Origin: Phycisphaerae bacterium
Lineage (GTDB): Bacteria > Planctomycetota > Phycisphaerae > Phycisphaerales > Phycisphaeraceae
DNA: 64,000 bases
NCBI GenBank assembly: GCA_030432595.1
Contig: JAUIGU010000002.1
Coordinates: 248,001 to 312,000, forward strand
Direction of reading: 5' to 3'
The position numbers and the translations under genes are program-made. Numbering within the stretch: position 1 is the first letter of the stretch; every line of letters starts with the position of its first letter. The notes under the pieces are model-generated. The model was not told where the DNA came from and did not search any database. It saw only the letters and a program-made list of their open reading frames with translations. Shown here piece after piece: positions 394 through 42,522 of this stretch.

Positions 394-1004
394 GTCGTCA
401 CCCCCGAACGCACGGGGCCGGCGGTGTCGGAGGGCCGGACGCATCGCGCCAACGCCCACCCCAGCGCGGCCATGAGCGCGGCGAAGCCGAGTTCGGTGAC
501 CAGCGTCAGCGCGTGGTGCCCGACGTCTTTCCAGTTGGAGTGCTCAACGCCCACGAACAGGTAGATCGGCGATCCGACGCGGTCGGCGTTGATCGGCCAC
601 CACAACCCCACGCCCCGGCCGGGCGTCAGCCAGTCCATGAGGACGTGCGAGGCGTACGCCCCGGTCCCGATAACCCAGAGCCAGCCCCAGGGCAGCGCGG
701 CGTCGCCGAGGTGATCGCCCGGTGGATTGCTTCGAGGCGGGAACACAAGGCCGCGCACCAGCACCGCCCACACCACGCCGAACAGCCCGGCCAGCAGCAG
801 CGAGTGCGTCGGCCCGCCGTGGAGTTTGAACGGCCCGGCACCGAGCACGAGCCCCAGTGCGATGTCGAGGTCGGGGGCGAGCAGCGCAAACACGACCGCG
901 GCTTGGAATAGCCACCGCCGGCCACGGGTCAGCGCACGCAACCGCGCCCTCAGCGGCGGGGCCACGGCCAGCAACAGCGAGCTGTGGGCGAGTGGGGAAG
1001 GCAT
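390..1004 (-). CDS. Membrane-bound metal-dependent hydrolase, DUF457/YdjM-like
   Basis: This is a 204-residue polytopic inner-membrane protein. It shows the features I associate with DUF457 (LexA-binding inner-membrane-associated putative hydrolase, YdjM type): APDLD near residue 45, HGGPTHS near residues 62-68, SHVLMDWLTP near residues 120-130 and a WWPI segment. The conserved Asp and His residues lie at membrane edges and probably bind metal. Four to five hydrophobic segments are visible, the last near the C-terminus. The substrate is unknown; phospholipid or glycolipid hydrolysis has been proposed for relatives. It overlaps the downstream gene by 4 nt and is 91 nt from the glycosyltransferase upstream. 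Confidence 0.8.
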   Translation of the reverse strand: MPSPLAHSSLLLAVAPPLRARLRALTRGRRWLFQAAVVFALLAPDLDIALGLVLGAGPFKLHGGPTHSLLLAGLFGVVWAVLVRGLVFPPRSNPPGDHLGDAALPWGWLWVIGTGAYASHVLMDWLTPGRGVGLWWPINADRVGSPIYLFVGVEHSNWKDVGHHALTLVTELGFAALMAALGWALARCVRPSDTAGPVRSGVTT

Positions 1005-1058
1005 GGAGAAACCCGTCGCTGCCGGTCCGGGCTCTGAAAAGGCTGTGCGTCGCGAAAC

Positions 1059-1085
1059 AGAGCCGGGAGCGTGAGCGACCGGTGG
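1059..1085. repeat. Dispersed GAGCCGGGAGCGTGAGCG repeat, copy 1
   Basis: This short intergenic element reads AGAGCCGGGAGCGTGAGCGA followed by CCGG. A closely related copy lies at 56615-56641 (AGAGCCGGGCGCGTGAGCGT, then CCGG). Both can fold around a GTGA loop and both sit between genes. From memory, similar GC-rich elements are common between planctomycete genes, but I cannot check that here. Confidence 0.55.
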
Positions 1086-1095
1086 CTTCCGCGTC

Positions 1096-2184
1096 TCACG
1101 CCGCGTCGGTCATGCGGGGCGTGCTGTGTTGGCCCGGCGTGTCGCCGTTGGTCGGCGTCGCGGCGGTGAACACATCGCGCACTTTGTACGGCGGGCGGTT
1201 CTGGCTCTCGTGGTAGATGCGCACCATCAGCTCGGACAGCACGCCCATCATCAGGAAGATCACGCCCATCAGGAACGTCATCATCGCGAACAGCACGAAG
1301 ATGTTGTCGTTGAGCATGACCGGGCTGTTGTGCTCGGTGAGCCAACCGAACTTCTGGATCAGCGCCACGAACAGCGACGCGAACGCCACCGCGAACGTCC
1401 CGGCCGCCAGCTTGCCGAAGAAATAGATCGGCTTGGTGAGGTAGTCGCCCAGGAACTTCACGGTCAGCAGGTCCAGCAGCACCTTGAACGTGCGCTTCAG
1501 GCCGTATTTCGACGCCCCGAACTCGCGGGCGCGGTGGTTGACGACCATCTCGGTGATGCGGGCGCCCCGCCACTTGCAGATCGCCGGGAGGAACCGGTGC
1601 ATCTCGCCGTAGATCGTGACGTCTTCGAGCACCTTGCGGCGGTACGCCTTCATCGAGCAGCCGAAGTCGTGGATCTCCGTGGTCCACGTGAGCTTCTTGA
1701 TCAGGCGGTTGGCGATGATCGAGGGGAACCGGCGGGAGAGCAGTTTGTCCTGCCGCTCTTTGCGCCAGCCCGAGACGATGTCCCACTTGCCGGGCGCGTC
1801 GCCGTTCTCGTCGAGCTTGGCGACCAGCCTGGGGATGTCGGCGGGGTCGTTCTGCAGGTCGCCGTCCATGGGCACGATGACCTTGCCGCGCGCGTGGTCG
1901 AAGCCCGCGGCGGTGGCGGCGGTCTGGCCGAAGTTCCGCATCAGTTCGATGACGGTGACGCGCGGGTCGCCGGCGGTGCATTCACGCAGCGCGCCGACGG
2001 TGTCGTCCCACGAGCCGTCGGAGATGAAGAGCACCTCGTAGGCGTCGCCCGCGGCGGCGCGCTCGTCCATGACCTCGGCGATCTGCGCGTAGAGCTTGGC
2101 GACGCTCTCCTGCTCGTTGTACACGGGGACCACGATGGAGACGTCGAGCGACGCGCGGGAATCGGCGGTGGAGCGTGGCGTCAT
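1096..2184 (-). CDS. GT2 glycosyltransferase with two C-terminal membrane helices (DPM1/ArnC-like)
   Basis: This is a 362-residue family-2 glycosyltransferase. SIVVPVYNEQES (about residues 16-27) opens the nucleotide-sugar fold, DGSWDDT lies near residue 56, and MDGDLQNDP near residue 106 supplies the metal-binding DxD-type Asp residues. Two hydrophobic hairpins follow (about 255-280 and 292-320), the arrangement of undecaprenyl-phosphate sugar transferases such as ArnC and GtrB. It probably loads a sugar onto the polyprenyl carrier at the cytoplasmic face. The ATG at 2184 overlaps the stop of the upstream glycosyltransferase (ATGA), which fixes the start. The C-terminal tail past about residue 335 is polar and low in complexity. 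Confidence 0.88.
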   Translation of the reverse strand: MTPRSTADSRASLDVSIVVPVYNEQESVAKLYAQIAEVMDERAAAGDAYEVLFISDGSWDDTVGALRECTAGDPRVTVIELMRNFGQTAATAAGFDHARGKVIVPMDGDLQNDPADIPRLVAKLDENGDAPGKWDIVSGWRKERQDKLLSRRFPSIIANRLIKKLTWTTEIHDFGCSMKAYRRKVLEDVTIYGEMHRFLPAICKWRGARITEMVVNHRAREFGASKYGLKRTFKVLLDLLTVKFLGDYLTKPIYFFGKLAAGTFAVAFASLFVALIQKFGWLTEHNSPVMLNDNIFVLFAMMTFLMGVIFLMMGVLSELMVRIYHESQNRPPYKVRDVFTAATPTNGDTPGQHSTPRMTDAA

Positions 2185-29910: not shown

Positions 29911-30144
29911 CCTGAAGTCCTCGTGGAACAAAAAGGTCCACGACCCCATCGACCCCATCCTCCGCCTCAGCCACGCCTACCCCTGTGTCGCCTCGGGAAC
30001 CTTCCCAAGCCGTAACGCCTGTATCGCCTGTGACGGTCACGCCACAGCGAGCGCAACACGATAACCCGAACCGGACATTGCCCCGCCCCGCACGGATGTG
30101 ACAAACGGGGGTGCGACCCGTCACTGGCCAGAATCACAACAGAA

Positions 30145-30178
30145 AGCGCCCGCCGAAAAGGCGGGCGCTTCGCATGAA
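30145..30178 (-). terminator. Intrinsic terminator of the PEP-CTERM gene
   Basis: A perfect 10-bp stem AGCGCCCGCC/GGCGGGCGCT with a GAAAA loop (30145-30169), read on the minus strand, is followed by TTCTGTTGT. It lies about 40 nt after the stop of the gene at 30207-30860. Confidence 0.8.
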
Positions 30179-30206
30179 ACTCAATATGTCGTTCGCGTCG
30201 GCCGGC

Positions 30207-30860
30207 TTACTTGCGGCGACGCAGCATCGCCAAGCCGCCCAGGCCCAGCAGGGCCGCGCTCGCGGGCTCGGGGACGTAGTTGAAGTTGACGTCATCGACG
30301 TACACCTGCTGGTTCAACGCGCCGCCGAAGCTCTGGATCGCGTACACCACGCGGGCGGTGTCGGCCCCGGCCGGGATCACGTCGGCGAGGATGAACTCCT
30401 CATAGGTGTCCTGCACCGACGGCCCGTCGGTGATCTGCGTGCGGCTGATCTCGACGTCGTTCACCGAGTCACGCCACTCGATGCGGATCTCGCTGCCGCC
30501 GGTGTCGCCGATCAGCTTGTGCCAGCCGCTCCACCAGGCCATCTGGCCGGCCAGCGCCGGGCTGAACTGAACGTCCTGGAACGCACCCGCGAACTGGTTC
30601 GCGACCCCGTTGATCATCAGGTCCAGGCTCTGCGCACCGGTCCGGGGCATCTGGCCCGACTCGGCCGCCGGGGCGTCCGCGCCGGAGGAGAACGCTTCCC
30701 AGGACCCGACAAACGGCGCGCCGTCCATCGTGAACAGCCCCGGGTCCTCAAAGCTCGGGTCCACAACCTGGTTGGGGTTGTCCAGGTGGGCACCCATCGC
30801 CGACGAGCCCACAAAGGCCACCGCCGCGGCCGCGCTCATCACACTCTTCCACATCTTCAT
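30207..30860 (-). CDS. PEP-CTERM secreted protein
   Basis: The 217-residue protein has a signal peptide (SVMSAAAAVAFVGSSAMGAH) and a C-terminal sorting tail VPEPASAALLGLGGLAMLRR ending in RK, recognised in the family by an exosortase. The middle part, with VVDPSFEDPG near residue 32 and VYVDDVNFNYV near residue 180, resembles the jelly-roll carbohydrate-binding-like domain common in PEP-CTERM proteins. It is probably attached to the cell envelope or exported. It stands alone, with its own terminator downstream and a 259-nt gap upstream. No exosortase gene is visible in the window. Confidence 0.87.
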   Translation of the reverse strand: MKMWKSVMSAAAAVAFVGSSAMGAHLDNPNQVVDPSFEDPGLFTMDGAPFVGSWEAFSSGADAPAAESGQMPRTGAQSLDLMINGVANQFAGAFQDVQFSPALAGQMAWWSGWHKLIGDTGGSEIRIEWRDSVNDVEISRTQITDGPSVQDTYEEFILADVIPAGADTARVVYAIQSFGGALNQQVYVDDVNFNYVPEPASAALLGLGGLAMLRRRK

Positions 30861-30963
30861 GTTCCTACTCCTTCTTCAAAGAGACCGGGGATAGACGAAA
30901 TCGACCCGACATTCTCGCCGAGCGTCCGTCAAGCATATCACGATTTCCACGCCCTCCAAGCAT

Positions 30964-30991
30964 GAAACAGTGGTGAAACTGTTTATTTTTT
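30964..30991. other. AT-rich hairpin followed by a T-run in the gap 30861-31119
   Basis: AAACAG (30965-30970) pairs with CTGTTT (30979-30984) and is followed by A and TTTTTT. On the plus strand this looks like a weak terminator, but no plus-strand gene precedes it. The rest of the 259-nt gap shows nothing I can assign; it should hold the promoter of the PEP-CTERM gene at 30207-30860. Confidence 0.35.
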
Positions 30992-31119
30992 CGGCTTTCC
31001 GCCTCGTTAATCCCGATCGCGGCAACGGCGAGTGTTTCATCCCTGATTCACTTTCCCAGTTTGCCGCGCCCCGGACACGGCACTCCAAATCCGATCGACG
31101 GCCCACCCGACCGCCGCCG

Positions 31120-31446
31120 CTACCACTTGCCTTCCGGGCAGGCCTCGTCCGCCAGCCGCGTCTTGGCCAGCAACTGGCACCGGCAGACGCCGCACGTGCT
31201 GGCCGGGGTCAGCACCGTGAGCCGGTGCGCCTTGCGCGTGCCCCGCGCCGCCGGGCACGCCGCACACACCTGCCGCCGCCGCCGCCGGGTCGCGTCGTCC
31301 GCCGGGTTCACCCGGCCGATCACCCGCGCCCAGCCGACCGCCCCGCGCCAACCGCGTCGCCACCACGCCTCGGCCGACGCCCCAGGCACCGCCGCCACGC
31401 CTTCCTTTGGAAGCTCAACCGCTGCAATCTCAACCGTCGCCGCCAT
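31120..31446 (-). CDS. Small Cys-rich (zinc-ribbon-like) protein
   Basis: From ATG 31446 (GTG at 31452 also possible) the frame encodes 108 residues. The first half is Ala/Trp/Arg-rich with no clear fold. The second half has CxxC (CAAC, about residue 61), then CGVCRC about 23 residues later, and ends in CPEGKW. That spacing suggests a small zinc-binding ribbon. I know this C-terminal pattern from small uncharacterised phage and bacterial proteins but cannot name a family. It is divergent from the membrane-protein gene at 31625. Confidence 0.6.
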   Translation of the reverse strand: MAATVEIAAVELPKEGVAAVPGASAEAWWRRGWRGAVGWARVIGRVNPADDATRRRRRQVCAACPAARGTRKAHRLTVLTPASTCGVCRCQLLAKTRLADEACPEGKW

Positions 31447-31611
31447 ACGCACGCTATCGGACGCCCCGCCCCGCCAGCATCACCCGCCCACCCTTATCGA
31501 TGCCCATCAAACCCCGGCAACACCCGTCCCGGCAGTTTCACCCCGTTTCACCCCCCGCGCCGCCCGCCCGGCGCGATACCTTGATCCTCACGATTCACGT
31601 CTCCCCCTTTC

Positions 31612-31617
31612 AAGGAG
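31612..31617 (+). promoter_or_regulatory. Shine-Dalgarno site AAGGAG
   Basis: AAGGAG lies 7 nt before the ATG at 31625 and decides between that start and an open frame that continues upstream. Such clear sites are uncommon in this window. Confidence 0.75.
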
Positions 31618-31624
31618 CCAACCC

Positions 31625-32188
31625 ATGGCCGACCCCTCGCCCCCCGGCGGCGCCTCCGACCTGCGCCACACCTACTTCGCCACGCTCCGCGAGGAGATCC
31701 TCCAGGTCAAGGCCCGGCTCAACCGCCTCGTCGTCACCGGGCTCATCGGCCTGCCCGTGCTCACCTGGTTCGCCTACGCCGGCAACGAAGAAGGCCGACT
31801 CAACCTCGTACTGCTCATGTCGCCGATGCTCGCGCTGATCCTGCTCGTGCAGTACTTCGCCGAGCAGGCGTCGATGATGCGGGCCGGCCGGTACCTCTAC
31901 GAAAAAGTCGAGACGTCCGGCGACGACTGGGAACACTGGATCAACGAGATGCGCAGCCGCACCACCGAGCCGCCGGTGTTCGGGCTGTTCGTCATCGTCA
32001 TCTTCGGGTACGTGATCCTGATGGGGTCGCTCGCGGTGACGAACCTGCTGGCCATCGAGCCGCGCGAGCTGAGCGTGCTGATGTACCGCGTGTGCCTCAT
32101 CGCCGTGCCCGTGATCTACGGCGTGTCGCTGCTGTGGGTGCTGATCGTGCTCGCCCGCTTCTGGCACAACGCGTTCCGCGCGGTGTGA
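31625..32188 (+). CDS. Four-helix membrane protein, unknown function
   Basis: The 187-residue protein starts at the ATG behind AAGGAG. It has a short amphipathic N-terminus (LREEILQVKARLNRLVVT), a first helical pair (about residues 36-55 and 60-78), a cytoplasmic loop with ETSGDDWEHWINEMRSRT, and a second pair (about 115-140 and 155-180). I recognise no domain. A strong terminator follows 60 nt downstream, so it is probably monocistronic. Confidence 0.75.
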   Translation: MADPSPPGGASDLRHTYFATLREEILQVKARLNRLVVTGLIGLPVLTWFAYAGNEEGRLNLVLLMSPMLALILLVQYFAEQASMMRAGRYLYEKVETSGDDWEHWINEMRSRTTEPPVFGLFVIVIFGYVILMGSLAVTNLLAIEPRELSVLMYRVCLIAVPVIYGVSLLWVLIVLARFWHNAFRAV

Positions 32189-32248
32189 ACCGCGCCACCG
32201 CACCGCGCGCGGAATCCCCGCCGACTTGAAAAACCACACATTCACCCC

Positions 32249-32284
32249 GAAGCCCACACCGTGACGGTGTGGGCTTCTTCCTTC
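32249..32284 (+). terminator. Intrinsic terminator
   Basis: The stem GAAGCCCACACCG/CGGTGTGGGCTTC (13 bp, loop TGA, 32249-32277) is followed by TTCCTTC. It lies 60 nt after the membrane-protein stop codon. Confidence 0.78.
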
Positions 32285-32710
32285 TCTCACACCTCCGTGG
32301 AGCTCCTTACGCCCCTGCTTCACATGTCAAAGAACACCGTGTGCGCCTCTGGCGAGCCGGGCAGTGTCGGCCCGGAATCCGGGGTGACACGCCCCGGCTC
32401 GCTTTCGAAACAAACCCGGGGCGGGACCGTCGTCACGATCCACAGACCCCCGGCCGGCGTCGGTTTTTCAACCCGCCGTCACCGCGCTTCGGATGGGACT
32501 CACTCGGGCGATCCCGGCGGGAGACGGCGTCGATCAGGTTCCGTCCCGATCCACCCGCGTCCAAGGCCACACGTCAATTCGTGATTAAGGAACCAGACCC
32601 CTCACCCACCTGGCACCCACGCGGAGGCCACGCCCTTCACTCTGTACTTCAATTGTATCCGCCCATCGTTCCGCCACGGATGAACTACCGGGCAGACCGT
32701 GCGCAGGAAA

Positions 32711-32775
32711 CCGCAGATGCCCTCCGCGGCTTTGTGATGCGGCGTCTCTTACAAAGCCGCCGACGGCGTCGGCGG
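32711..32775. repeat. TATAAAGC paired-palindrome element, degenerate copy
   Basis: Two half-elements face away from each other. The left (32711-32739), read on the minus strand, has CACAAAGCCGCGGAGGGCAT; the right has TACAAAGCCGCCGACGGCGT and then CGGCGG. The half-units match the family at 34513 and 35284 but the arrangement differs. Confidence 0.6.
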
Positions 32776-32806
32776 GCGGACGTGCGCAGAACACGAGTCC
32801 AAGTTC

Positions 32807-32877
32807 AGCTGCGACGCCACGCGTCGCAGAGGTTCGTAGACCGTCCGGGCTCGTCTGCGACGCGTGGCGTCGCAGCT
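32807..32877. repeat. Perfect 23-bp inverted repeat, each arm itself palindromic
   Basis: The arms at 32807-32829 and 32855-32877 are exact reverse complements, starting AGCTGCGACGCCACGCGTCG and separated by 25 nt. Each arm can also fold alone (CTGCGACGC with GCGTCGCAG). It resembles a REPIN: two inverted REP hairpins with a short spacer. It ends 56 nt before the GH43 stop codon. Confidence 0.8.
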
Positions 32878-32932
32878 AAGGCGCGGGACTCGACACGCTC
32901 GTTCCTTGTGTCGCGTACATGTCGTCCGACGA

Positions 32933-33904
32933 TCAAAAGCCATCGCCGACGCTCATCACCACCGGCACGATCAACCCCTCGTCGTCGTATTCGATGCGCT
33001 CGAGCGCGGTGCTGCGGTGCCCCTTGTATGGCCCTCCACCGTCGCGCCCTTCCCAGCGGTGGTAGGCGATCCATGTTTGGCCCGTGCGCGGATCGACGAA
33101 GAAGCTGTGATGGCCCGGGCCCTTCGCGATCGGGTCGTCGGCAGCGCTTTGCAGAATGCACCCGCGGTACGTCCACGGGCCGGTCGGGGCGTCGGCGGTG
33201 CTGTAGTGCACGCTGTACCCCGCGCTGTTCCACGAGCCGTGCGAGTAGCTGAGGTAGTACACGCCGGTGCGCTCGTGCATGAACGCGCCCTCGGTGAACG
33301 CGCGCGGCTGCTCGACCTCCACCTCGCGCTTCAAACTCGCCATGTCGTCGTTGAGTTCCCACACGCGCAGCGTCGCCCCTCGGCTGCCGCCGGCGTAGAG
33401 GTACGTCGCGCCGGTCGCCGGATCGCGGAACACCATCGGGTCGATCGCTTCGAACTGTTGCACCGGGTATCCGGTCGTGTCGGTGATCAGCGGCTTGCCC
33501 GAATCCACGAACGGCCCGGTGGGTTGGTCGCCGACCGCGACGCCGATGCGCGACGGGTGCCCGCCGACGGAGAAGTAGAAGTAGAACCGCCCGGCGTGCT
33601 CGTGGACCGCCGGCGCCCACGCGTTGCGCGTCCCGGGCTCCAGCCACGACACGTCTTTGAAGTGCAAGATCGATCCGTGCGCTTGCCAGTCGCGAAGGTC
33701 GGCCGACGACCAGGCCTGGAAGTGGTCCCCGCCGTTCGTGGGGTAGACGTACACGCGCCCATCAAACACCGCCGCGTGCGGGTCGGCCGCGTGTTCGAGC
33801 ACCGGGTTGGCGGGCGGCGTTTGCGCGGCAGCGTTCGGCACGGCGGAACCAACGAGTAATAAGGCGACAACGAAACACCACAGACGAAAACCCACGTGAA
33901 TCAT
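32933..33904 (-). CDS. Secreted glycoside hydrolase family 43-like protein
   Basis: The 323-residue protein has a signal peptide (FRLWCFVVALLLVGSAVPNA). The mature part starts with DPHAAVFDGRVYVYPT, where the first Asp is the GH43 catalytic base. DPMVFRDPATGATYLYAGG near residue 148 gives the pKa-modulating Asp, and FTEGAFMHERTGVYYLSYS near residue 200 gives the general-acid Glu. HHSFFVDPRTGQTWIAYHRW near residue 266 is the usual fifth-blade segment. The family fold is a five-bladed beta-propeller acting on arabinan or xylan. The frame extends to 34219, but 33904 directly precedes the signal peptide. It is flanked by repeats and has no polysaccharide-utilisation neighbours. Confidence 0.88.
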   Translation of the reverse strand: MIHVGFRLWCFVVALLLVGSAVPNAAAQTPPANPVLEHAADPHAAVFDGRVYVYPTNGGDHFQAWSSADLRDWQAHGSILHFKDVSWLEPGTRNAWAPAVHEHAGRFYFYFSVGGHPSRIGVAVGDQPTGPFVDSGKPLITDTTGYPVQQFEAIDPMVFRDPATGATYLYAGGSRGATLRVWELNDDMASLKREVEVEQPRAFTEGAFMHERTGVYYLSYSHGSWNSAGYSVHYSTADAPTGPWTYRGCILQSAADDPIAKGPGHHSFFVDPRTGQTWIAYHRWEGRDGGGPYKGHRSTALERIEYDDEGLIVPVVMSVGDGF

Positions 33905-33939
33905 GATGACCACACGGTAGCGACCCGCCCGCCCGTCCT

Positions 33940-33967
33940 TATAAAGCGGCGGCCGGTGGCCGCCGTC
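33940..33967. repeat. TATAAAGC element, single half copy
   Basis: TATAAAGCGGCGGCCGGTGG then CCGCCGTC matches the left half of the complete copies at 34513 and 35284. It folds GGCGGCC/GGCCGCC. The right half is absent. Confidence 0.75.
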
Positions 33968-34204
33968 TCCCCCACCACCCGCCACCGGATCCGACCGACA
34001 CCGCAGGGCGCTTGAACAAGCCGCCCCACTGCACCGCACGCCGGTTCCGCGCGTGAATCTGCAAGTCAATCTCATGTGTCGGTGTAACCCGAAATGCCGT
34101 AGAAACCGCGGCCGGCGAAACTTAAAATGGAGGGTGTCGGATCGGGCCACGCATGCGACCACGCCGCTCGGCCGGAACGACGACGAACCCGCGACGCCCC
34201 CACG

Positions 34205-34211
34205 AAAGGAG
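34205..34211 (+). promoter_or_regulatory. Shine-Dalgarno site AAAGGAG
   Basis: AAAGGAG lies 6 nt before the ATG at 34218 and selects this start over an open frame extending to 34053. Confidence 0.75.
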
Positions 34212-34217
34212 TTCCCC

Positions 34218-34421
34218 ATGTTGACGCTTCACGAAGGCCAGTGCGGCCTGTGCAAACACTTCGGCGAGCACGACAACGCACCGCAGCTTGTGCAGGTGCG
34301 CACCAGCAAGTCCGCGCCAGAAGACCTCAAGGCCGACTGCGGCCACCCCAAACTCGAGCCGCTGCACCTGACCGTCACCCCCGACTCGGGCTGCGAAGGC
34401 TTCGAAGCCGCCGCGGCGTAA
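34218..34421 (+). CDS. Small Cys-rich protein, probable zinc binder
   Basis: This 67-residue protein has Cys9, Cys12, Cys41 and Cys59 in the arrangement GQCGLCKHF, DCGHP and GCEGF. The spacing suggests one zinc site with two Cys from an N-terminal knuckle and two from C-terminal loops. No signal peptide or membrane helix is present, so it is probably cytosolic. I cannot name the family. A strong ribosome site precedes it and a terminator follows 38 nt downstream, so it is a single-gene unit. Confidence 0.75.
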   Translation: MLTLHEGQCGLCKHFGEHDNAPQLVQVRTSKSAPEDLKADCGHPKLEPLHLTVTPDSGCEGFEAAAA

Positions 34422-34458
34422 CCCCTGCGCCCGCGACACAGGTCTGAATCGTCCCCCA

Positions 34459-34485
34459 GCCTCGCAAGCGCTTGCGGGGCTTTTT
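34459..34485 (+). terminator. Intrinsic terminator
   Basis: The near-perfect stem GCCTCGCAAGC/GCTTGCGGGGC (34459-34480) is followed by TTTTTC. It ends the small Cys-rich gene. Confidence 0.82.
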
Positions 34486-34512
34486 CATGCGCGAGCGCGC
34501 AGATCGCCGCCT

Positions 34513-34589
34513 TTATAAAGCGGCGGCCGGTGGCCGCCGTCCGGGTGGAAGCGCGACCCGAAGACGGCCGACACCGTCGGCCGCTTTAT
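34513..34589. repeat. TATAAAGC paired-palindrome element, complete copy
   Basis: This 77-bp element starts TATAAAGCGGCGGCCGGTGG and ends GCCGACACCGTCGGCCGC then TTTATA. Each half is a hairpin and the ends TATAAAGC/GCTTTATA are inverted. It is almost identical to 35284-35360 over its whole length, including the spacer. It lies between a terminator and the DM13/PEP-CTERM gene. Confidence 0.85.
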
Positions 34590-34660
34590 ACGAGAGCATT
34601 TCGACGCGGGGCTTTTTCGTGCACCGCCTTGACGGTCAAGCATGAATGGATGGCGGCGCG

Positions 34661-35185
34661 TCACCGCGCCCGTCGGCCGCGCCGCAAGAGCCACCCCGCG
34701 CCCAACGCCGACAGCCCGGCGGCGCTCGCTGGCTCGGGGACCGGCGCGAACACGGCGTCGCCGAAGCTCACGCCCGCCGGCACGCACCACACCGAGATCG
34801 CGCGGTGGCCGGCCAGGGAGGCGGTGCCCAGGTCGATCGTGAACGACTCGTCCACGTACGGCGAGCTGCGCAGCAGTTGGCTGCCGATCGCGTAGCCGTC
34901 GCGGAAGCTGATGGGCTCGGTCGGGTCGCGGACCTCGTCGAGCCAGAAGAACACGCTGATCCCGGTGCCGTCGTAGTGGAAGCCATCGACCTGGAGCGTG
35001 TGCTCATCGACGATGGTGACCGTGCCCGCCACATCGTGGAAGCGCGTCTCCAACTCCGCCTGCCACCCGGCCATCTCGAACCCCTGCCCGGCGGCGGTGA
35101 CGACGCCGGCCCACAGCACCACGGCCAAGGTCAGGACCAAGGCCCCCACCCCACCGACACGACCCGCTCGAAACCACACACGCAC
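34661..35185 (-). CDS. DM13-domain PEP-CTERM protein
   Basis: From GTG 35185 the protein has 174 residues. A GAGGAGG lies 6 nt upstream, deciding this start over the open frame to 35344. A signal peptide (VGALVLTLAVVLWAGVVTAA) is followed by FHDVAGTVTIVDEHTLQVDG, FHYDGTGISVFFWLD and SFTIDLG, the pattern of a DM13 domain, which in eukaryotes is a proposed electron-transfer module. The C-terminus PVPEPASAAGLSALGAGWLL with an Arg tail is a PEP-CTERM sorting signal. It is flanked on both sides by near-identical repeats. Confidence 0.8.
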   Translation of the reverse strand: MRVWFRAGRVGGVGALVLTLAVVLWAGVVTAAGQGFEMAGWQAELETRFHDVAGTVTIVDEHTLQVDGFHYDGTGISVFFWLDEVRDPTEPISFRDGYAIGSQLLRSSPYVDESFTIDLGTASLAGHRAISVWCVPAGVSFGDAVFAPVPEPASAAGLSALGAGWLLRRGRRAR

Positions 35186-35191
35186 GGCCAA

Positions 35192-35198
35192 CCTCCTC
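35192..35198 (-). promoter_or_regulatory. Shine-Dalgarno site GAGGAGG
   Basis: On the minus strand GAGGAGG precedes the GTG at 35185 by 6 nt and fixes the start of the DM13 protein. Confidence 0.75.
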
Positions 35199-35283
35199 GT
35201 CACGAAACACACGGCACCGTCTCCACGGTACCGCACAACCGCCGAATCACCGGAACTATTCCCGGCATTCCCGAGGTGATCCG

Positions 35284-35360
35284 TATCAAGCGGCGGCCGG
35301 TGGCCGCCGTCCGGGTGGAAGGGCGCCCCGAAGACGGCCGACACCGTCGGCCGCTTTATA
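35284..35360. repeat. TATAAAGC paired-palindrome element, complete copy
   Basis: This 77-bp copy differs from 34513-34589 at only a few positions. Its left end reads TATCAAGC and the right end GCTTTATA. It lies between the DM13 gene and the restriction-modification island. Confidence 0.85.
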
Positions 35361-35416
35361 CGAAGCCACGCCGACGCGGAGTGAACGCCCGCAGCCGGAA
35401 CATGGCAGGTTCCGGT

Positions 35417-35464: not shown

Positions 35465-36157
35465 CTACGCTCGAATCTTCATATCACCGCGATAACCGAG
35501 CGGTGCTTCGGTCAAACGCAACTGAGGTTCGACGTGGCCCTTACGAAATGCCACGTTGTGAATCGAGTTTTCCTCGACATCTTCGTTACCCCACTGATCC
35601 CAACCGTCACGCGGGAAACGGGCGAATAGTTCGAGACGTGGACTTGGGGAACACGATTCCACGATGTCGTAGATCTCGTCGGGCTTGCGTGAGTGTTCAC
35701 GCTTTCGCGTTGCGAGAAGATTGACCTGGGTACGCCCTGGCTGTTCCGTCCGCATCCGACCACGCACCCCGAACAAGATCAGTTCGGTCACGTTGCGGAA
35801 ATAAAAACCCACGCCACGCCCATCCGGGCCACCGTCTTTACGAACCTTGAACCAGACGAGGTTCGATTTGTACGTGAATCCCCAAGCCTCCATCACCTGA
35901 AGTCCCTGCATCAGTAGTGCATTGGGGACCCAGAGGTAAAGGTGAGATTTTGCGGCGGCGAGTTTTGGCACCGGGAGTTCCATGATCTCCTTGAGCTCCA
36001 TCGTCGGATACCGCAAGAGCCGACGATGTTCCGGCGCGACTTTGCCCGTGCGGTTCTGAAACTGCCATGGCGGGTCCGCGAGGATGGTCGCATATGGACC
36101 AGAAAACTTTGACGCCAAATCTTCGGCCGGCGTGCTTGTTGTGTCAGTTTCTGCCAT
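35465..36157 (-). CDS. MT-A70 family DNA adenine methyltransferase (restriction-modification)
   Basis: The 230-residue protein contains ILADPPWQFQNRTG near residue 25, the DPPW catalytic motif of MT-A70-type N6-adenine methyltransferases. KSHLYLWVPNALLMQGLQ near residue 70 and FYFRNVTELILFGVRG near residue 118 are the other usual blocks, and REHSRKPDEIYDIVE near residue 155 follows. It probably protects host DNA against the endonuclease encoded just upstream. The ATG at 36157 is preferred to the TTG at 36178. GC content is visibly lower than in the neighbours (near 50% by eye), pointing to horizontal acquisition. Confidence 0.9.
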   Translation of the reverse strand: MAETDTTSTPAEDLASKFSGPYATILADPPWQFQNRTGKVAPEHRRLLRYPTMELKEIMELPVPKLAAAKSHLYLWVPNALLMQGLQVMEAWGFTYKSNLVWFKVRKDGGPDGRGVGFYFRNVTELILFGVRGRMRTEQPGRTQVNLLATRKREHSRKPDEIYDIVESCSPSPRLELFARFPRDGWDQWGNEDVEENSIHNVAFRKGHVEPQLRLTEAPLGYRGDMKIRA

Positions 36158-36180
36158 GGCTATTTCCCAGGATTTCAATC

Positions 36181-36906
36181 TTACACGATGATATTAGCAG
36201 GCAATCCAATCAACAGCAGTGGACAAGGGTTTCCCACACCTCGAGCGACCCTGGTCTCAAGCTTTCGCCAATGGGTCGATGCTTCCCCGAACTTGCTCTT
36301 CACAAACGCATGCGACCAACCTTCAGGAAACGCGCCTTTCGCTTTCACGGCACGTAGAATCCCCGCCTTTTGTTTGCTGGTTGGCTCGTAGTAAGCAGAC
36401 AGATCGTCAAACGAACCAATGCCTTGGCGTTTAGCGAAATCTAGGATGATTCTCGGAATCGCATCTTGAAGTGATCGACCACGGGTAATAATCCCCCCGA
36501 CAGAAATCACCCCGTCTGCATGAAGGCGCTTGAAATTCTCCAGGTCCCGGTCGTAAAAAGGGTCTTTGTTATTCCATTCGATTTCAAGAGCAAATGTGTG
36601 ATCGCCAAATTTTTTGACGTGATCGATTTCATGTGAGATCGATTCTTTCTCTTCACCGTCAACAATCTTTTTAATCTCGAAATTGTGTTTCACCCACCCA
36701 AACCGTTGGCTAAGGTCGCGACGGATTCTTTGGGTCAGTTTCCCTTCACCACCACCGCTCTCAACAAGTTCGCGCACCGGAAGTTCGACCGACTCTAGGA
36801 TTTGCTCAAGTTCCGCAACCGCGGCTCCCATGTCATGCGTCAAAATCGCTTCTGCATGATGAAGCGCAAGGATTTCGAAGCCTCGCTCCTTGAGCTTTTC
36901 AAACAT
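36181..36906 (-). CDS. BglII/BstYI-like type II restriction endonuclease
   Basis: The 241-residue protein starts MFEKLKERGFEILALHHAEA. The central block HTFALEIEWNNKDPFYDRDL (about residues 107-126), followed by ENFKRLHADGVI, is characteristic of the BglII/BstYI endonuclease family; the acidic residues of LEIEW and the upstream Asp are the likely metal ligands. The family cleaves AGATCT or RGATCY, so a GATC-centred site is probable but not proven. It is 23 nt upstream of the methyltransferase gene and begins 2 nt after the sucD stop codon. Base composition is AT-richer than the surroundings. Confidence 0.9.
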   Translation of the reverse strand: MFEKLKERGFEILALHHAEAILTHDMGAAVAELEQILESVELPVRELVESGGGEGKLTQRIRRDLSQRFGWVKHNFEIKKIVDGEEKESISHEIDHVKKFGDHTFALEIEWNNKDPFYDRDLENFKRLHADGVISVGGIITRGRSLQDAIPRIILDFAKRQGIGSFDDLSAYYEPTSKQKAGILRAVKAKGAFPEGWSHAFVKSKFGEASTHWRKLETRVARGVGNPCPLLLIGLPANIIV

Positions 36907-36908
36907 GA

Positions 36909-37847
<939 letters not shown>

Positions 37848-37883
37848 GGTGGGTCTGGGGTTGGGGTCTGGATCGGGGTTGGC

Positions 37884-37917
37884 GGATCCGGGGCTTCGCG
37901 TTGCTCAGCACCGGCTA
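37884..37917 (-). repeat. Hairpin repeat, copy D (intergenic)
   Basis: On the minus strand it reads AGCCG, stem GTGCT, loop GAGCAACGCGA, stem AGCCC, then CGGATCC. It matches the consensus of the three genic copies but lies in the gap upstream of sucD and has one mismatch in the stem. Beside it (37850-37882) is a GGGTCTGGGGTTGGGGTCTG stretch related to 58119-58273. Confidence 0.65.
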
Positions 37918-38026
37918 AAAGGGATGTCGTGCGGGGTCGCGTGGGTTTCGGGGGTGTTCCGGGGGTGCGACTTTCCGGGGGGCGGAGGATAACGGATGGG
38001 GCGCGGGGCGGGCTTAGGATGCGGGG

Positions 38027-38626
38027 ATGGCAGCGGGTGCAGAACACAACAGCGCGGTCGGCGACGGAGCGAGGGCGTCGGCGAGTTGGGTGGAGGTCGG
38101 GCGTTACGCCAACGGTCTGGACGCGGACCTGGCGGTGACGCTGCTGGCGGGTCAGGACATCCCGGCGGTGCTGGACAACCGCGAGTTCGTGGGGATGGAC
38201 TGGATGCTGGCCAACGCGACCGGGGGGATCAAGGTGCTGGTGCCGCCCGAGCACGGGATCGAAGCGGCGAAGCTCTTGCGGTTGTCGGAGCGTTCGCGCG
38301 GCGGGGACGTGCGATTGGGCGAGGCGGGCGAGTTGGAGGACGCGGAGGTGTGTCTGCGTTGCGGCGGGCGCATGCCGATGGGCGACGCGGTGTGCGACGC
38401 GTGCGGGTGGACGTACACGGAGGAGTTGGAGTCGAGCGAGGCGTTGACTCAACACGAAGGCGACGTATCAGCTGCCCCAGAACCCCGAGGATTGTCACCC
38501 GCGTTGCGTCTGTTGTTGCTGGCGTTTTTACTGATCATCATCCTCGCGCTGATCGAAGGTTCGGTTTTTCGATTTCCGTACTTTCCGGTATACAACGAAC
38601 GATTTCCAGGATGGTGGTGGCGTTGA
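38027..38626 (+). CDS. DUF2007-like protein with zinc ribbon and C-terminal membrane helix
   Basis: The 199-residue protein begins with SWVEVGRYANGLDADLAVTL and LDNREFVGMDWMLANATGGI, the fold of DUF2007 (putative prokaryotic signal-transducing protein), followed by VLVPPEHGIEAAKLL. A CxxC-x10-CxxC zinc ribbon (CLRCGG, CDACGW) follows near residues 110-128. A membrane helix (about 161-182) lies near the C-terminus. The layout suggests a membrane-anchored regulatory or sensor protein. It is divergent from sucD. Confidence 0.8.
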   Translation: MAAGAEHNSAVGDGARASASWVEVGRYANGLDADLAVTLLAGQDIPAVLDNREFVGMDWMLANATGGIKVLVPPEHGIEAAKLLRLSERSRGGDVRLGEAGELEDAEVCLRCGGRMPMGDAVCDACGWTYTEELESSEALTQHEGDVSAAPEPRGLSPALRLLLLAFLLIIILALIEGSVFRFPYFPVYNERFPGWWWR

Positions 38627-38643
38627 GAACCTGACCATTAAAA

Positions 38644-38680
38644 CGACAACGCCCACGGCGGCGAACCGTGGGCGTCGTCG
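38644..38680. terminator. Bidirectional terminator-like hairpin
   Basis: CGACAACGCCCACGG pairs with CCGTGGGCGTCGTCG around a short loop. It lies between convergent genes (DUF2007-like on plus, PEP-CTERM on minus) and can serve both. On the minus strand TTTTAATGG follows closely. Confidence 0.7.
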
Positions 38681-38730
38681 AACAAGGGAGTGGGAAAGGG
38701 GAAGGCTTGGTCTCGGGGAATCCGGTCGGG

Positions 38731-39573
38731 TTACGCGACGCGTCGCCGGCGGAGCATCGTCAGGGCGCCGAGCGTGCCCAGCGCCGCGGCGCTGGCGGGT
38801 TCGGGGACGACGCTGATCTCGATGGTGGCGAGCAGTTCGCCGGGCGCGAGCAGGTCGGTGACGGTGACGCCGGCCGGGGTGCCGATGCCGGCGAAGTTGT
38901 CGAGCTGGCTGCCGGTGACGGCGGTGACGACGCCGTTCTCATCGGTGGGCGTGTTGGCGACGACGGCGAAGGCGGCGCCGAGGGTGTCGTTGACTTCGGT
39001 GCCGGAGTCGTAGAGGTCGCTGCCGAAGATCTGGATGGTGACGGTGCCGGAGGGGTCGACGATGTTGCCGGCGTTGTCGAAGACTTCGTAGGCGAGCGGG
39101 TCGCCGTTGCCGATGAAGGTGTCGTTGGAGGGGATGACCATGGAGGCGAAGGAGAACCAGCGGTAGGCGGCGGGGTTGGCGGGGGTGACGAACCCAAGGC
39201 CGGTCTCGCCGGGATCGATGACGGGGGGTTGGCCCGCGCCGCTGCCGAAGCCGGCGGGCCCGGTGGCGACGCCCTGGAAGTTGGGGTGCGCCGCGCTGAA
39301 GGCGGCCTGGAGCCCGCCGACGATGCCGTCCTCGGCGAGGTCTTCGAGTTCGGTGCCGCCGAGCGGGACACTCGCGGCGCTGCCGGTGTCGAAGAGGTCG
39401 AACGTGCCGTCGTGGAACCCGAACCACAGGGGCGTGAGGAAGAAGTCGGAGTTGCCGTGGTTGGTGATGGCGACCTGGATGTCGCCGTTGGCCTGGGCGG
39501 CCGCGTCGTTGGACCAGGTGCTCACGCCGACGCCGGCGCACGCGACAGCTCCCGCGATCAGAAAACGATTCAT
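38731..39573 (-). CDS. Spondin-domain PEP-CTERM protein
   Basis: From ATG 39573 (AGGAGA 12 nt upstream) it has 280 residues. A signal peptide (FLIAGAVACAGVGVSTWSND) is followed by VAITNHGNSDFFLTPLWFGF, HDGTFDLFDTG and GTELEDLAEDG, matching the bacterial Spondin_N domain, and FASMVIPSNDTFIGNGDPLA near residue 160. The C-terminus VVPEPASAAALGTLGALTML with RRRRVA is the PEP-CTERM tail. It is exported and probably envelope-attached; the role is unknown. The frame extends to 39792, but the signal peptide fixes the start. Confidence 0.88.
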   Translation of the reverse strand: MNRFLIAGAVACAGVGVSTWSNDAAAQANGDIQVAITNHGNSDFFLTPLWFGFHDGTFDLFDTGSAASVPLGGTELEDLAEDGIVGGLQAAFSAAHPNFQGVATGPAGFGSGAGQPPVIDPGETGLGFVTPANPAAYRWFSFASMVIPSNDTFIGNGDPLAYEVFDNAGNIVDPSGTVTIQIFGSDLYDSGTEVNDTLGAAFAVVANTPTDENGVVTAVTGSQLDNFAGIGTPAGVTVTDLLAPGELLATIEISVVPEPASAAALGTLGALTMLRRRRVA

Positions 39574-39949
39574 GACTCTGCTTCTCCTACTGGAAGGGTG
39601 AAAAAGAAAAACGCAATCCGCAAAAAAGAAACGCGCAGCACCCTTCGATGGGGGGTGAACCGGCGGGCGTCGCGCGTTATTCCGTGGTCGCGAAAAAAAA
39701 GTGGAAGGTGTAGGTGGTGCGGTGTGTGTCTTTGATGACTGCAACCCGCGCGGGCAAACCCCGACGGCCGCGTGGCCAAAGCGCGCACGCATGCTCTACA
39801 TTGCGGTCGTGGTTCACTTTGCTTTCAGTGGCACCGGCATCTTGCCGGTGGTCGGCCGCGAGGCCGAAGGGGGCCGCGTTTTCGCCTGCGGCGAACCACC
39901 GGCAAGATGCCGGTGCCACTAAAAGTGAACCCGTGCCTACATTGCCGGC
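39574..39949. other. Intergenic region with a long inverted repeat
   Basis: These 376 nt separate divergent genes (spondin PEP-CTERM and tag). The stretch 39574-39811 should contain the PEP-CTERM promoter and shows nothing else I can name. The inverted repeat at 39812-39929 fills the side next to tag. Confidence 0.5.
39812..39929. repeat. Long inverted repeat with ACCGGCATCTTGCCGGT arms
   Basis: The left arm holds GTTCACTTT, then AGTGGCACCGGCATCTTGCC (39827-39846). The right arm holds GGCAAGATGCCGGTGCCACT (39901-39920), then AAAAGTGAAC. Each arm is itself a hairpin. The element ends 21 nt before the tag start codon. From memory, GGCATCTTGCC elements are frequent in planctomycetes and related bacteria. 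Confidence 0.82.
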
Positions 39950-40567
39950 ATGCCCGCGACACCGGCTTCGCCTTCCGAACCGCCCAAGCCCAACGCCAAA
40001 CGCTGCGCGTGGGTGAGCAACGACCTGGCGGCCGCGTACCACGACACGGAGTGGGGCGTGCCGTTGCACGACGAGCACAAGCTGTTCGAGTTTCTGATCC
40101 TCGAGGGCGCGCAGGCCGGGCTGAGCTGGGACACGATCCTCAAGAAGCGTGAGCACTACCGCACCGTCTACGACGGCTTCGACCCCCGGAAGGTCGCGCG
40201 TTACACCGAGACCAAGCAGGCGAAGCTCCTCGCCGACGCGGGCATCGTGCGTAACAGGCTCAAGGTCGCGTCGTCGGTGCGCAACGCGAAAGCGTTCCTC
40301 AAGGTGCAGAACGAATTCGGCGGTTTCGACGCGTACGTGTGGCGCTTCGTCGATGGAACGCCCGTGCAGAACCGTTGGAAGACGCTGAAGGACATCCCCG
40401 CGAGCACGCCCGTGTCCGATGCGCTGAGCAAAGACCTCAAGAAGCGTGGCTTCAACTTCGTCGGCAGCACGATCATGTACGCGTTCATGCAGGCGACCGG
40501 CATGGTCAACGACCACACGACCGACTGTCATCGGCACGCGGCGTGCTTTCAACATCAACTAAAGTGA
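39950..40567 (+). CDS. tag: DNA-3-methyladenine glycosylase I
   Basis: The 205-residue protein contains KRCAWVSNDLAAAYHDTEWG (about residues 18-37) with the first Cys and His zinc ligands, and FLILEGAQAGLSWDTILKKR near residue 51. KDLKKRGFNFVGSTIMYAFM near residue 161 is the HhH-like DNA-binding part. The C-terminal DHTTDCHRH gives the remaining His and Cys ligands. It removes 3-methyladenine from alkylated DNA as the first step of base-excision repair. The short Pro-rich N-terminal extension may mean the real start is a little downstream. Confidence 0.93.
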   Translation: MPATPASPSEPPKPNAKRCAWVSNDLAAAYHDTEWGVPLHDEHKLFEFLILEGAQAGLSWDTILKKREHYRTVYDGFDPRKVARYTETKQAKLLADAGIVRNRLKVASSVRNAKAFLKVQNEFGGFDAYVWRFVDGTPVQNRWKTLKDIPASTPVSDALSKDLKKRGFNFVGSTIMYAFMQATGMVNDHTTDCHRHAACFQHQLK

Positions 40568-40619
40568 AGCAATCGGAAGCAAGAAGCGCCGGCGCCATAA
40601 CGCTCAGGAGCATGATCAA

Positions 40620-41315
40620 ATGAATGCCTGTTGCCCGATTCATCAGTTCATTCTTGGTGTGTTGATCTGTGTGACTCCATGCCCCGCGCAGTCCGAATTG
40701 GATCAGGGTCCGGACGCGTTCGGTGACGAGCCCCCCACCCGGGTGGTCGTCATGGTCGGCAATCACGCGACGGTCGCCGAACTGGGCCGGCCGATCGAGC
40801 TGGTTTTCGACGGCAAGCGGCAGCTTGTCACCATCATTCCAGATTCACACAAGACGTTCGAACACGGCCCATTGCGGTTTGAGTACCCAAGCAACATGTC
40901 GTTTGGATACGCGCTCCACGAAGGCACAGCACACGAATGGAAACTGAAAGGGCCAGACGTGGTGCTTCAGGTTCTGTGGATGCCTGACCCGGACTTCGCC
41001 GCCGGCCCGTGGACCGACGCATTCGCGGTAACAATCAGAAAAAAGTACGGCTTAAAAGATGCCGAGTTGACGCCTGAACATCTTGAGTTCGGGGGGTTCG
41101 ACTTGACCGGCTACAAGCTTGCCGCGCCGCTGATCGGAGGCGAGTTGATCGTTCAGTCGTTTTGTTCGATCGACACGATCAGGGGGCCTGTCATGTTTGT
41201 TCTGACGCAATCTCCGCCCGACCTGGCCGACGATACCGATGGCTATGTTGAGTTGATGGCCTCGCTGAAGGATTCATTGCGCGTGGAAACCCACGCGAAT
41301 CAGGCCGGCCACTGA
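40620..41315 (+). CDS. Hypothetical secreted protein
   Basis: The 231-residue protein starts with a possible signal peptide (FILGVLICVTPCPAQS). The mature part has HATVAELGRPIELVFDGKRQ and LLxxAPLIGGELIVQSF-like beta strands, with two Trp-rich loops. I recognise no domain. The overall feel is a beta-rich periplasmic protein. GC content is somewhat lower than in its neighbours. It is 52 nt after tag and 97 nt before the thioredoxin-like gene on the same strand; co-transcription is possible. Confidence 0.65.
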   Translation: MNACCPIHQFILGVLICVTPCPAQSELDQGPDAFGDEPPTRVVVMVGNHATVAELGRPIELVFDGKRQLVTIIPDSHKTFEHGPLRFEYPSNMSFGYALHEGTAHEWKLKGPDVVLQVLWMPDPDFAAGPWTDAFAVTIRKKYGLKDAELTPEHLEFGGFDLTGYKLAAPLIGGELIVQSFCSIDTIRGPVMFVLTQSPPDLADDTDGYVELMASLKDSLRVETHANQAGH

Positions 41316-41412
41316 ATCGGCCTAATTCACCGGGCAACGAAGACCCTGTGCCTATCATGTGTTCGGCCCGCCGGGCTGTGTCGTTGCCGTCCCCTCCAAC
41401 CGGGAGTTCCCG

Positions 41413-42522
41413 ATGAATGTGCTTTCTCCTTGCCGTGTGCTGACCACTGTCCTGATGGCCTGTTTGATGTTGGTGTTCTGTGTCGACCCCGCCGCGGCGT
41501 TGAAGGTCGGCGACGACGCCCCGCCGCTGCAGCAGGGCAAGTACGTCAAGGGCGACCCCGTCAAAGAGTTCGAGGACGGCAAGGTGTACGTGCTCGAGTT
41601 CTGGGCGACGTGGTGCGGCCCGTGCATCAGCGCGATCCCGCACGTCACCGACCTGCAGCACCAGTACGCCGACGACGTGGTGATCATCGGGCAGAACGTG
41701 TGGGAGCAGGACGAGTCGGCGGTGCAGCCGTTCGTCGCGAAGATGGGCGACCAGATGGACTACCGCGTCGCGCTCGACGACAAGAGCAAGGACGCACAGG
41801 GCGCGATGGCCAAGACGTGGATGGAGGCCGCCGAGCAGAACGGCATCCCCTGCTCGATGATCGTGGACCAGAAGGGCAAGGTCGCGTGGATCGGCCACCC
41901 GATGTCGATGGACGGCGTGCTGGCGCGCGTGGTGGCGGGCACGTTCGACCCCGCCGCCGAGGCGCTGCGTAACCAGAAGCTCGAAGCGATGCAGCAGGAG
42001 ATGATGGCCGCGTTGCAGGTCGGCGACATCGACAAGGCCCTGGAGGTGGTGGACCGGGTCGAGGCGCTCGCGCCGGAGATGGCACCACAGATGGCGCAGG
42101 CGCGGATCGCGCTGCTCGGCCAGGCCGAGCGTTTCGACGAGATGGCGGTCGTGATGAAGGCCCGCATCGAGGCGAGCGACAACCCGGGCGAGTTGAATGA
42201 ACTGGCGTGGATGATCGTCGCGCCCGACTCGCCGATCCCCGACGGCGCAAAGGACCTCGACGCCGCGATGGCCGCCGCCGTCGAAGCCAACGAGCGCACC
42301 GACGGCGAAGCGCCCGGCATCATCGACACGCTCGCCCGGGTCCACCACCTCAAGGGCGATCACGCCAAGGCGATCGAGCTGCAGACCCAGGCGGTGGAGT
42401 TGAGCAAGGACACGCCCGAGATGCACGAGATGCTCAAGGCCACGCTCGAGGAATACAAGGCCGCCGCGGAACAGCAGTCGTACTGGGACGCGTTGCCGAT
42501 GATTGAAGTGTTCGGTTGCTGA
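41413..42522 (+). CDS. TlpA-like secreted thioredoxin with C-terminal TPR-like region
   Basis: From ATG 41413 (GGGAG 6 nt upstream) the protein has 369 residues. A signal peptide (VLTTVLMACLMLVFCVDPAA) is followed by LKVGDDAPPLQQG and YVLEFWATWCGPCISAIPHV, with the CGPC redox site near residue 67. NGIPCSMIVDQKGKVAWIG near residue 138 holds the cis-Pro region. The C-terminal half (about 175-369) is helical, with TPR-like pairs such as LEVVDRVEALAPEMAP and HAKAIELQTQAVELSKDTPE. It is probably a periplasmic thiol-disulfide enzyme with a partner-binding domain. Confidence 0.86.
   Translation: MNVLSPCRVLTTVLMACLMLVFCVDPAAALKVGDDAPPLQQGKYVKGDPVKEFEDGKVYVLEFWATWCGPCISAIPHVTDLQHQYADDVVIIGQNVWEQDESAVQPFVAKMGDQMDYRVALDDKSKDAQGAMAKTWMEAAEQNGIPCSMIVDQKGKVAWIGHPMSMDGVLARVVAGTFDPAAEALRNQKLEAMQQEMMAALQVGDIDKALEVVDRVEALAPEMAPQMAQARIALLGQAERFDEMAVVMKARIEASDNPGELNELAWMIVAPDSPIPDGAKDLDAAMAAAVEANERTDGEAPGIIDTLARVHHLKGDHAKAIELQTQAVELSKDTPEMHEMLKATLEEYKAAAEQQSYWDALPMIEVFGC

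Follow-up and report, generated by a model that had tools for sequence, protein, structure and literature searches.

A BglII/BstYI-type endonuclease gene paired with an MT-A70 methyltransferase gene behind sucD in a Phycisphaerae bacterium, a probable horizontally acquired restriction-modification system

Genes at the locus and their products

Three consecutive genes, all on the minus strand, were analyzed in the window, by which we mean the whole 64,000-nucleotide stretch of DNA under study (its genome is G000); the positions of the open reading frames are those of the initial annotation. The first is the host gene sucD (36909 to 37847), encoding the succinyl-CoA ligase alpha subunit (Pfam CoA_binding and Ligase_CoA). 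Directly downstream lie a 241-codon gene, R (36181 to 36906), for a putative restriction endonuclease of the BglII/BstYI type in its long form, and M (35465 to 36178), for an MT-A70 methyltransferase that is presumably specific for DNA N6-adenine. The junction of sucD and R (36904 to 36911, minus strand) reads TAA-TC-ATG, and the distance of 2 nt between the sucD stop and the R start codon given in the initial annotation was therefore correct and is close enough for a common transcript. A GGGGG run within the final sucD codons may be the ribosome-binding site for R. The M open reading frame as called begins with a TTG at 36178; judging from the sequence, however, M more likely starts with the ATG at 36157, which follows the R stop at a distance of 23 nt.

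The GC content of positions 35465 to 36906 is 0.524, compared with 0.671 on one side (30000 to 35400) and 0.646 on the other (36909 to 42000), and the GC content at third codon positions is 0.50 in R and 0.62 in M against 0.91 in sucD. In the whole genome, one match each to PF09195 and PF05063 was found, namely, R and M. The Pfam matches and the composition bear out the initial description of the pair as a compact unit of BglII-like endonuclease and MT-A70 methyltransferase genes with foreign composition.

The R product matched PF09195 (Endonuc-BglII) with 81.5 bits (E = 7e-23; cut-off, 26). It contains the BglII/BstYI block LEIEWNNKDPFYDRD quoted in the initial annotation, and 10 of the 15 residues of this block were invariant in all 37 proteins of an alignment comprising the window protein and 36 relatives. 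Residues D94, E107, and E109 and the run from W110 to K113 were likewise invariant in 37 of 37 rows, and the D...ExE/Q residues are those that we take to be the catalytic acidic residues of the active site. A search of PDB sequences with R gave no phmmer match, and a profile search of them gave chance-level matches only, but comparison of the fold recovered BstYI and BglII. The AlphaFold2 model built from the 37-row alignment had a mean pLDDT of 93.8 and a pTM of 0.89; Foldseek placed BstYI and BamHI entries on top, and VIA-align Z scores were 19.2 for BstYI, 17.7 for BglII, 16.5 for BamHI, and 14.5 for OkrAI, whereas the entry ranked next scored 6.4. By family and by modeled fold, R is very probably a BglII/BstYI-type endonuclease. 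BstYI (2p0j/1sdo/1vrr) and BglII (1d2i/1es8) have the same fold as R over 166 and 152 aligned residues, respectively, with 19 to 20% identity across the aligned part; the partner of R is an MT-A70 protein, whereas the partner methyltransferases of BglII and BstYI are of the N4-cytosine type.

The M product matched PF05063 (MT-A70) with 112.8 bits (E = 2e-32; cut-off, 23.9) and the PADLOC profile MTase_II with 302.6 bits. Its DPPW motif was invariant in all 22 aligned M rows, and relatives with 78 to 80% identity were found in other phyla. PF05063 and DPPW are common to M and the eukaryotic MT-A70 family (METTL3/METTL14, chain 7f4r; phmmer E = 6.8e-18 to 7f4r), but M is a short bacterial protein adjoining a restriction nuclease, unlike the eukaryotic enzymes, which act in larger complexes.

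Beyond the end of the pair distal to sucD, at 35290 to 35367, lies a copy of a GC-rich repeat, and a near-identical copy lies at 34520 to 34593. The two copies, of 74 to 78 bases and 0.77 kb apart, flank a DM13-domain gene (34661 to 35344). By blastn against the sampled contigs of the same genome, further copies (79 to 81%) were found no more than 300 bases from the contig start in 4 of 20 contigs. The repeat is therefore a multicopy element and one that may break assembly; the copy at 35290 to 35367 is not claimed as part of the restriction-modification unit.

Pairing, distribution and acquisition

The initial annotation had marked the pairing of a BglII-type nuclease with an MT-A70 enzyme as worth checking; that it is unusual was not supported by wider comparison: an MT-A70 gene was present in the same locus for 121 of 123 R-related loci, which are not fully independent, since two of them (L226 and L040) share identical upstream sequence; one such pair has been biochemically tested; and a plasmid record is already annotated accordingly. 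The 123 loci comprised 80 genome-contig loci (the best 80 of at least 564), 8 Planctomycetota loci, 32 viral contigs, and L001, L002, and phage NrS-3. MT-A70 genes were found in 79 of the 80 genome-contig loci, the exception being L051, where only about 900 bases of contig follow R; the other locus without one was the viral contig L251. Outside the count were the copies of the window itself, phage NrS-2 (whose proteins are identical to those of NrS-3), plasmid locus L267, where an MT-A70 gene was present, and three loci with weak PF09195 matches in near relatives (L003, L005, and L006). These three had no MT-A70 neighbor, two of them being cut by contig ends, and they belong to the six near relatives, among 61, in which PF09195 was present. 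The nuclease and methyltransferase genes are kept together across lineages.

Two forms of R were distinguished among the 123 loci, a long form (88 loci) and a short form (26 loci), with 9 loci unscored; the stretch from the EWNNK block to the TTH motif is longer by about 47 residues in the long form. On the Rhizobium plasmid NZ_CP072159.1, the same two families adjoin and are annotated as “BglII/BstYI family type II restriction endonuclease” and “MT-A70 family methyltransferase”; the plasmid R is 52.7% identical to that of the window, and the two plasmid genes are convergent, whereas those of the window lie on the same strand. At a further locus (L229, genome G121, 643 to 1944, minus strand), the BglII-like and MT-A70 profiles matched one continuous stop-to-stop frame, a possible natural fusion of the two enzymes.

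Relatives of R (E <= 1e-10) were found in 9 of 392 sampled Planctomycetota, at full length in the window's own genome and in G235 only. Eleven plasmid records, five phage records, and 32 viral contigs also carried R relatives. This patchy distribution in Planctomycetota, the close M relatives in other phyla, and the R relatives on plasmids, phages, and viral contigs mean, on comparative sequence grounds, that the pair has been horizontally transferred. Comparison of the sucD 3' region with relatives agreed with the initial placement of the pair as an insertion behind sucD. The same-genus genome G001, which is 96% complete, contains a sucD gene 93.5% identical to that of the window and gave no PF09195 match in a profile search; homology between the two genomes ends at the end of sucD, with quite different sequence beyond. 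A precise empty site was not recovered in G001, as the sequence after sucD differs altogether.

By eye, no common sequence was found in the 70 bases upstream of R across 31 inspected loci (L226 repeating L040), and in the loci of relatives, the nearest same-strand open frame (at least 80 codons, called mechanically) overlapped R in some cases and in others ended as much as several hundred bases upstream. Given no shared upstream sequence and a variable upstream distance, the R ATG seems to be where the unit begins. In the window there is no room for a promoter of its own between sucD and R, and the unit is most likely read from sucD transcription. Read-through and re-initiation from sucD are likely because the gap is only 2 nt: ribosomes would re-initiate on R at the sucD stop, and M would follow 23 nt behind R.

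Predicted recognition site and alternative readings

We think it likely, from sequence and from analogy with a studied system, that the two genes form a horizontally acquired type II restriction-modification pair that probably recognizes RGATCY, with 6mA as the mark, and is read from sucD transcription. R would cut RGATCY, presumably as a dimer in keeping with its fold class, and M would mark the adenine as RG-6mA-TCY, sparing host DNA.

The system with which the pair can be compared is that of the deep-sea Nitratiruptor phage NrS-3, R.Nph3I and M.Nph3I (BCD83124.1 and BCD83123.1), which belong to the same Pfam families (R.Nph3I matched PF09195 and M.Nph3I matched PF05063 in our profile search) and are likewise encoded with R before M on one strand. 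As described for the phage enzymes, R.Nph3I cuts all four RGATCY sequences in vitro and is blocked by 6mA, M.Nph3I makes RG(6mA)TCY from RGATCY in vitro with a preference for GGATCC, and in earlier SMRT data the RGATCY motif was almost completely methylated in phage and host; the term MT-A70 is absent from the main text of that paper (PMC10734518). In the NrS-3 record (L268, 1468 to 2055), the R.Nph3I gene is annotated as “methyltransferase” and would escape keyword searches. The Nph3I pair is phage borne, whereas the window pair is chromosomal. Identities were computed against the proteins of NrS-2, which do not differ from those of NrS-3. Over 172 residues, the window M shares 72% identity with M.Nph3I, and it is from this identity that RGATCY with 6mA is predicted for the window pair. 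The window R, in contrast, shares only 30% identity with R.Nph3I and is a long-form protein of 241 amino acids, compared with 195 amino acids for the short-form R.Nph3I, so that the site in the window could differ. The initial guess of 6mA in GATC-centered sites accordingly stands in an indirect form only, by way of M.Nph3I.

It is possible, but in our judgment unlikely, that the genes form the same type II system with a long-form R that recognizes another palindrome, such as GATC, some of the RGATCY sequences, or another hexamer, owing to an inserted helical region. The roughly 47 extra residues between EWNNK and TTH speak for this possibility, as does the position of the window M outside the M.Nph3I group, whereas the 72% identity of M to an RGATCY methyltransferase speaks against it. 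The tree of M proteins places M.Nph3I together (96/92) with the methyltransferases of long-form R enzymes, mostly in convergent arrangement, and with that of one short-form R, and the pairing of one M group with both R forms favors a common recognition site. The window M falls into the other main group, and we know of no biochemically tested member of its own tree group.

Palindrome statistics gave no consistent recognition site, either in the pooled carriers or in the comparison of G000 (430 kb) with G001 (303 kb). The ratio of observed to expected RGATCY was 0.57 in G000, compared with 0.68 in G001, a non-carrier, and 0.83 in four other genomes of the family (400 kb; G004 and G010, which had no PF09195 match, and G066 and G071, which were outside that PF09195 search). 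Since G001, without PF09195, is also short of RGATCY, most of the shortage is common to a non-carrier. The M gene itself contains one AGATCT, a point against the predicted RGATCY site. Pooled counts covered 36 to 37 same-strand carriers, 43 to 44 other carriers, and 67 Planctomycetota control stretches, and the carriers avoided GATC-centered hexamers no more strongly than did the controls, an impure set in which the stretches of G003, G028, G031, and G033 have PF09195 matches.

Two other hexamers would fit a different palindrome. CTCGAG was low in the pooled same-strand carriers (62 of 146 expected, versus 334 of 534 in controls), and GTCGAC was halved in G000 but not in G001. These signals, however, indicate different sites; CTCGAG was not among the ten lowest motifs in a bootstrap comparison of the two carrier groups and was over-represented in the window (29 versus 20.3 by an order-2 estimate), and G000 may have further restriction-modification systems. 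The GTCGAC counts were 233 of 475 expected in G000 (20 contig starts plus the window) and 375 of 434 in G001, and the shortage in G000 hints at another restriction system, present or past.

That the system has decayed, leaving a solitary M beside an inactive R, is very improbable: the lower GC content and third-position GC content of R than of M suggest that constraint or age may differ between the genes, but the R reading frame is full length and without frame breaks, the residues invariant in 37 of 37 rows are kept, and the fold is predicted with confidence. The least probable alternative, an assembly artifact or contaminating fragment joined to sucD, would suit a 73-contig draft genome and the abrupt change in composition, but the junction lies inside a 321-kb contig and exactly behind the sucD stop, the unit is intact, and abrupt AT-rich units also lie behind sucD in G010, G013, and G026. 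The reading of the genes as a horizontally acquired RGATCY system is retained; our confidence in the full explanation is lowered because M lies outside the M.Nph3I group and because some palindrome controls carry PF09195.

The sucD 3' end in related genomes and the meaning of the pair

A sucD match was found in 50 of 51 genomes of the family, and the flanks of 48, the window genome included, were compared; G065 and G069, whose matches were no more than a fragment or a paralogue of 43% identity, were left out, as was G074, with no match. Two genomes with <1000 bases of flank and eight with a local GC content of <0.57 were then dropped, leaving 38. An insert was scored where the GC content of the first 900 bases behind sucD was at least 0.10 below the local value, a threshold set after four cases had been seen. 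Foreign AT-rich DNA lay directly behind sucD in 4 of these 38 GC-rich genomes, G000, G010, G013, and G026. The insert of G010 (L119) encodes an OLD nuclease (PADLOC, 2e-207), that of G013 (L123) encodes a 250-amino-acid protein with a sub-threshold HEPN match (PF18735, 20.9 bits versus 28.4) and no PADLOC match, and that of G026 (L140) contains two small open reading frames. In G013, a 91 to 92% copy of the final 73 bases of sucD plus a further 16 bases is found past the insert, and in G026, two inserts are separated by a degenerate sucD fragment; no sucD 3' copy was found beside the window pair. A Pfam scan found no integrase gene in the window pair, in the G010 or G013 inserts, or in seven nearby window open reading frames. 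One scan of the viral contigs with one SucD protein as query, able to recover close relatives only, found no sucD tail. No report of sucD as an insertion site was found in a literature search that covered few subscription journals.

In other families of the order, 61 sucD loci were considered, nine partial or paralogous loci (L273, L274, L298 to L301, and L329 to L331) having been left out beforehand. Four flanks were too short, leaving 57, and L277, which passed the threshold because of a masked N stretch, was dropped, leaving 56. No AT-rich insert was found behind sucD in any of the 56 (0 of 54 with a GC content of at least 0.57), the GC baseline here being sucD plus its upstream flank rather than the local median used for the family itself. 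Among background windows, 81 of 3,820 (2.1%) passed in one set and 29 of 2,877 (1.0%) in another, giving binomial p values of 0.008 and 0.0006, respectively, for 4 of 38, and the comparison of 4 of 38 with 0 of 54 gave a Fisher p of 0.026; these values are to be read with the commonness of AT-rich islands, the overlap of the windows, and the post hoc choice of threshold in mind. The difference between 4 of 38 and 0 of 54 is suggestive only, and there may be a weak insertion preference behind sucD. A stronger proposal, which we regard as doubtful, is that short foreign cassettes, largely of defense genes, repeatedly land at the sucD 3' end in this planctomycete family, with the sucD tail recombined in and sucD, presumably a well-expressed gene of central metabolism, serving as both docking point and promoter.

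Several weaker resemblances were seen behind sucD. Weak sucD-like matches (60 to 78%, some on the other strand) occurred in G004, G011, G015, G017, G025, and G034, and a 24% protein-level sucD match occurred in G022; we took these to be chance resemblances between GC-rich sequences. In another family (L269), a single weak sucD-like match (63%) was seen. By eye, a minus-strand frame 133 to 618 bases behind sucD in G066 (L138) resembles a REP-associated transposase, and one 10 to 426 bases behind sucD in G007 (L135), also on the minus strand, resembles a PIN-domain toxin.

The window pair is very probably, to judge from its sequence and from the phage system, a planctomycete, chromosomal, long-form example of a known defense system whose pairing of enzymes has already been proven in phage NrS-3. 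The combination of a BglII-fold nuclease with an MT-A70 methyltransferase is a widespread and mobile restriction-modification type with biochemistry known from at least one phage pair, and the mark predicted for the window, RG-6mA-TCY, would be simple to test. If the sucD lead is true, the end of a protein-coding gene would be a docking place for defense genes in an under-studied phylum.
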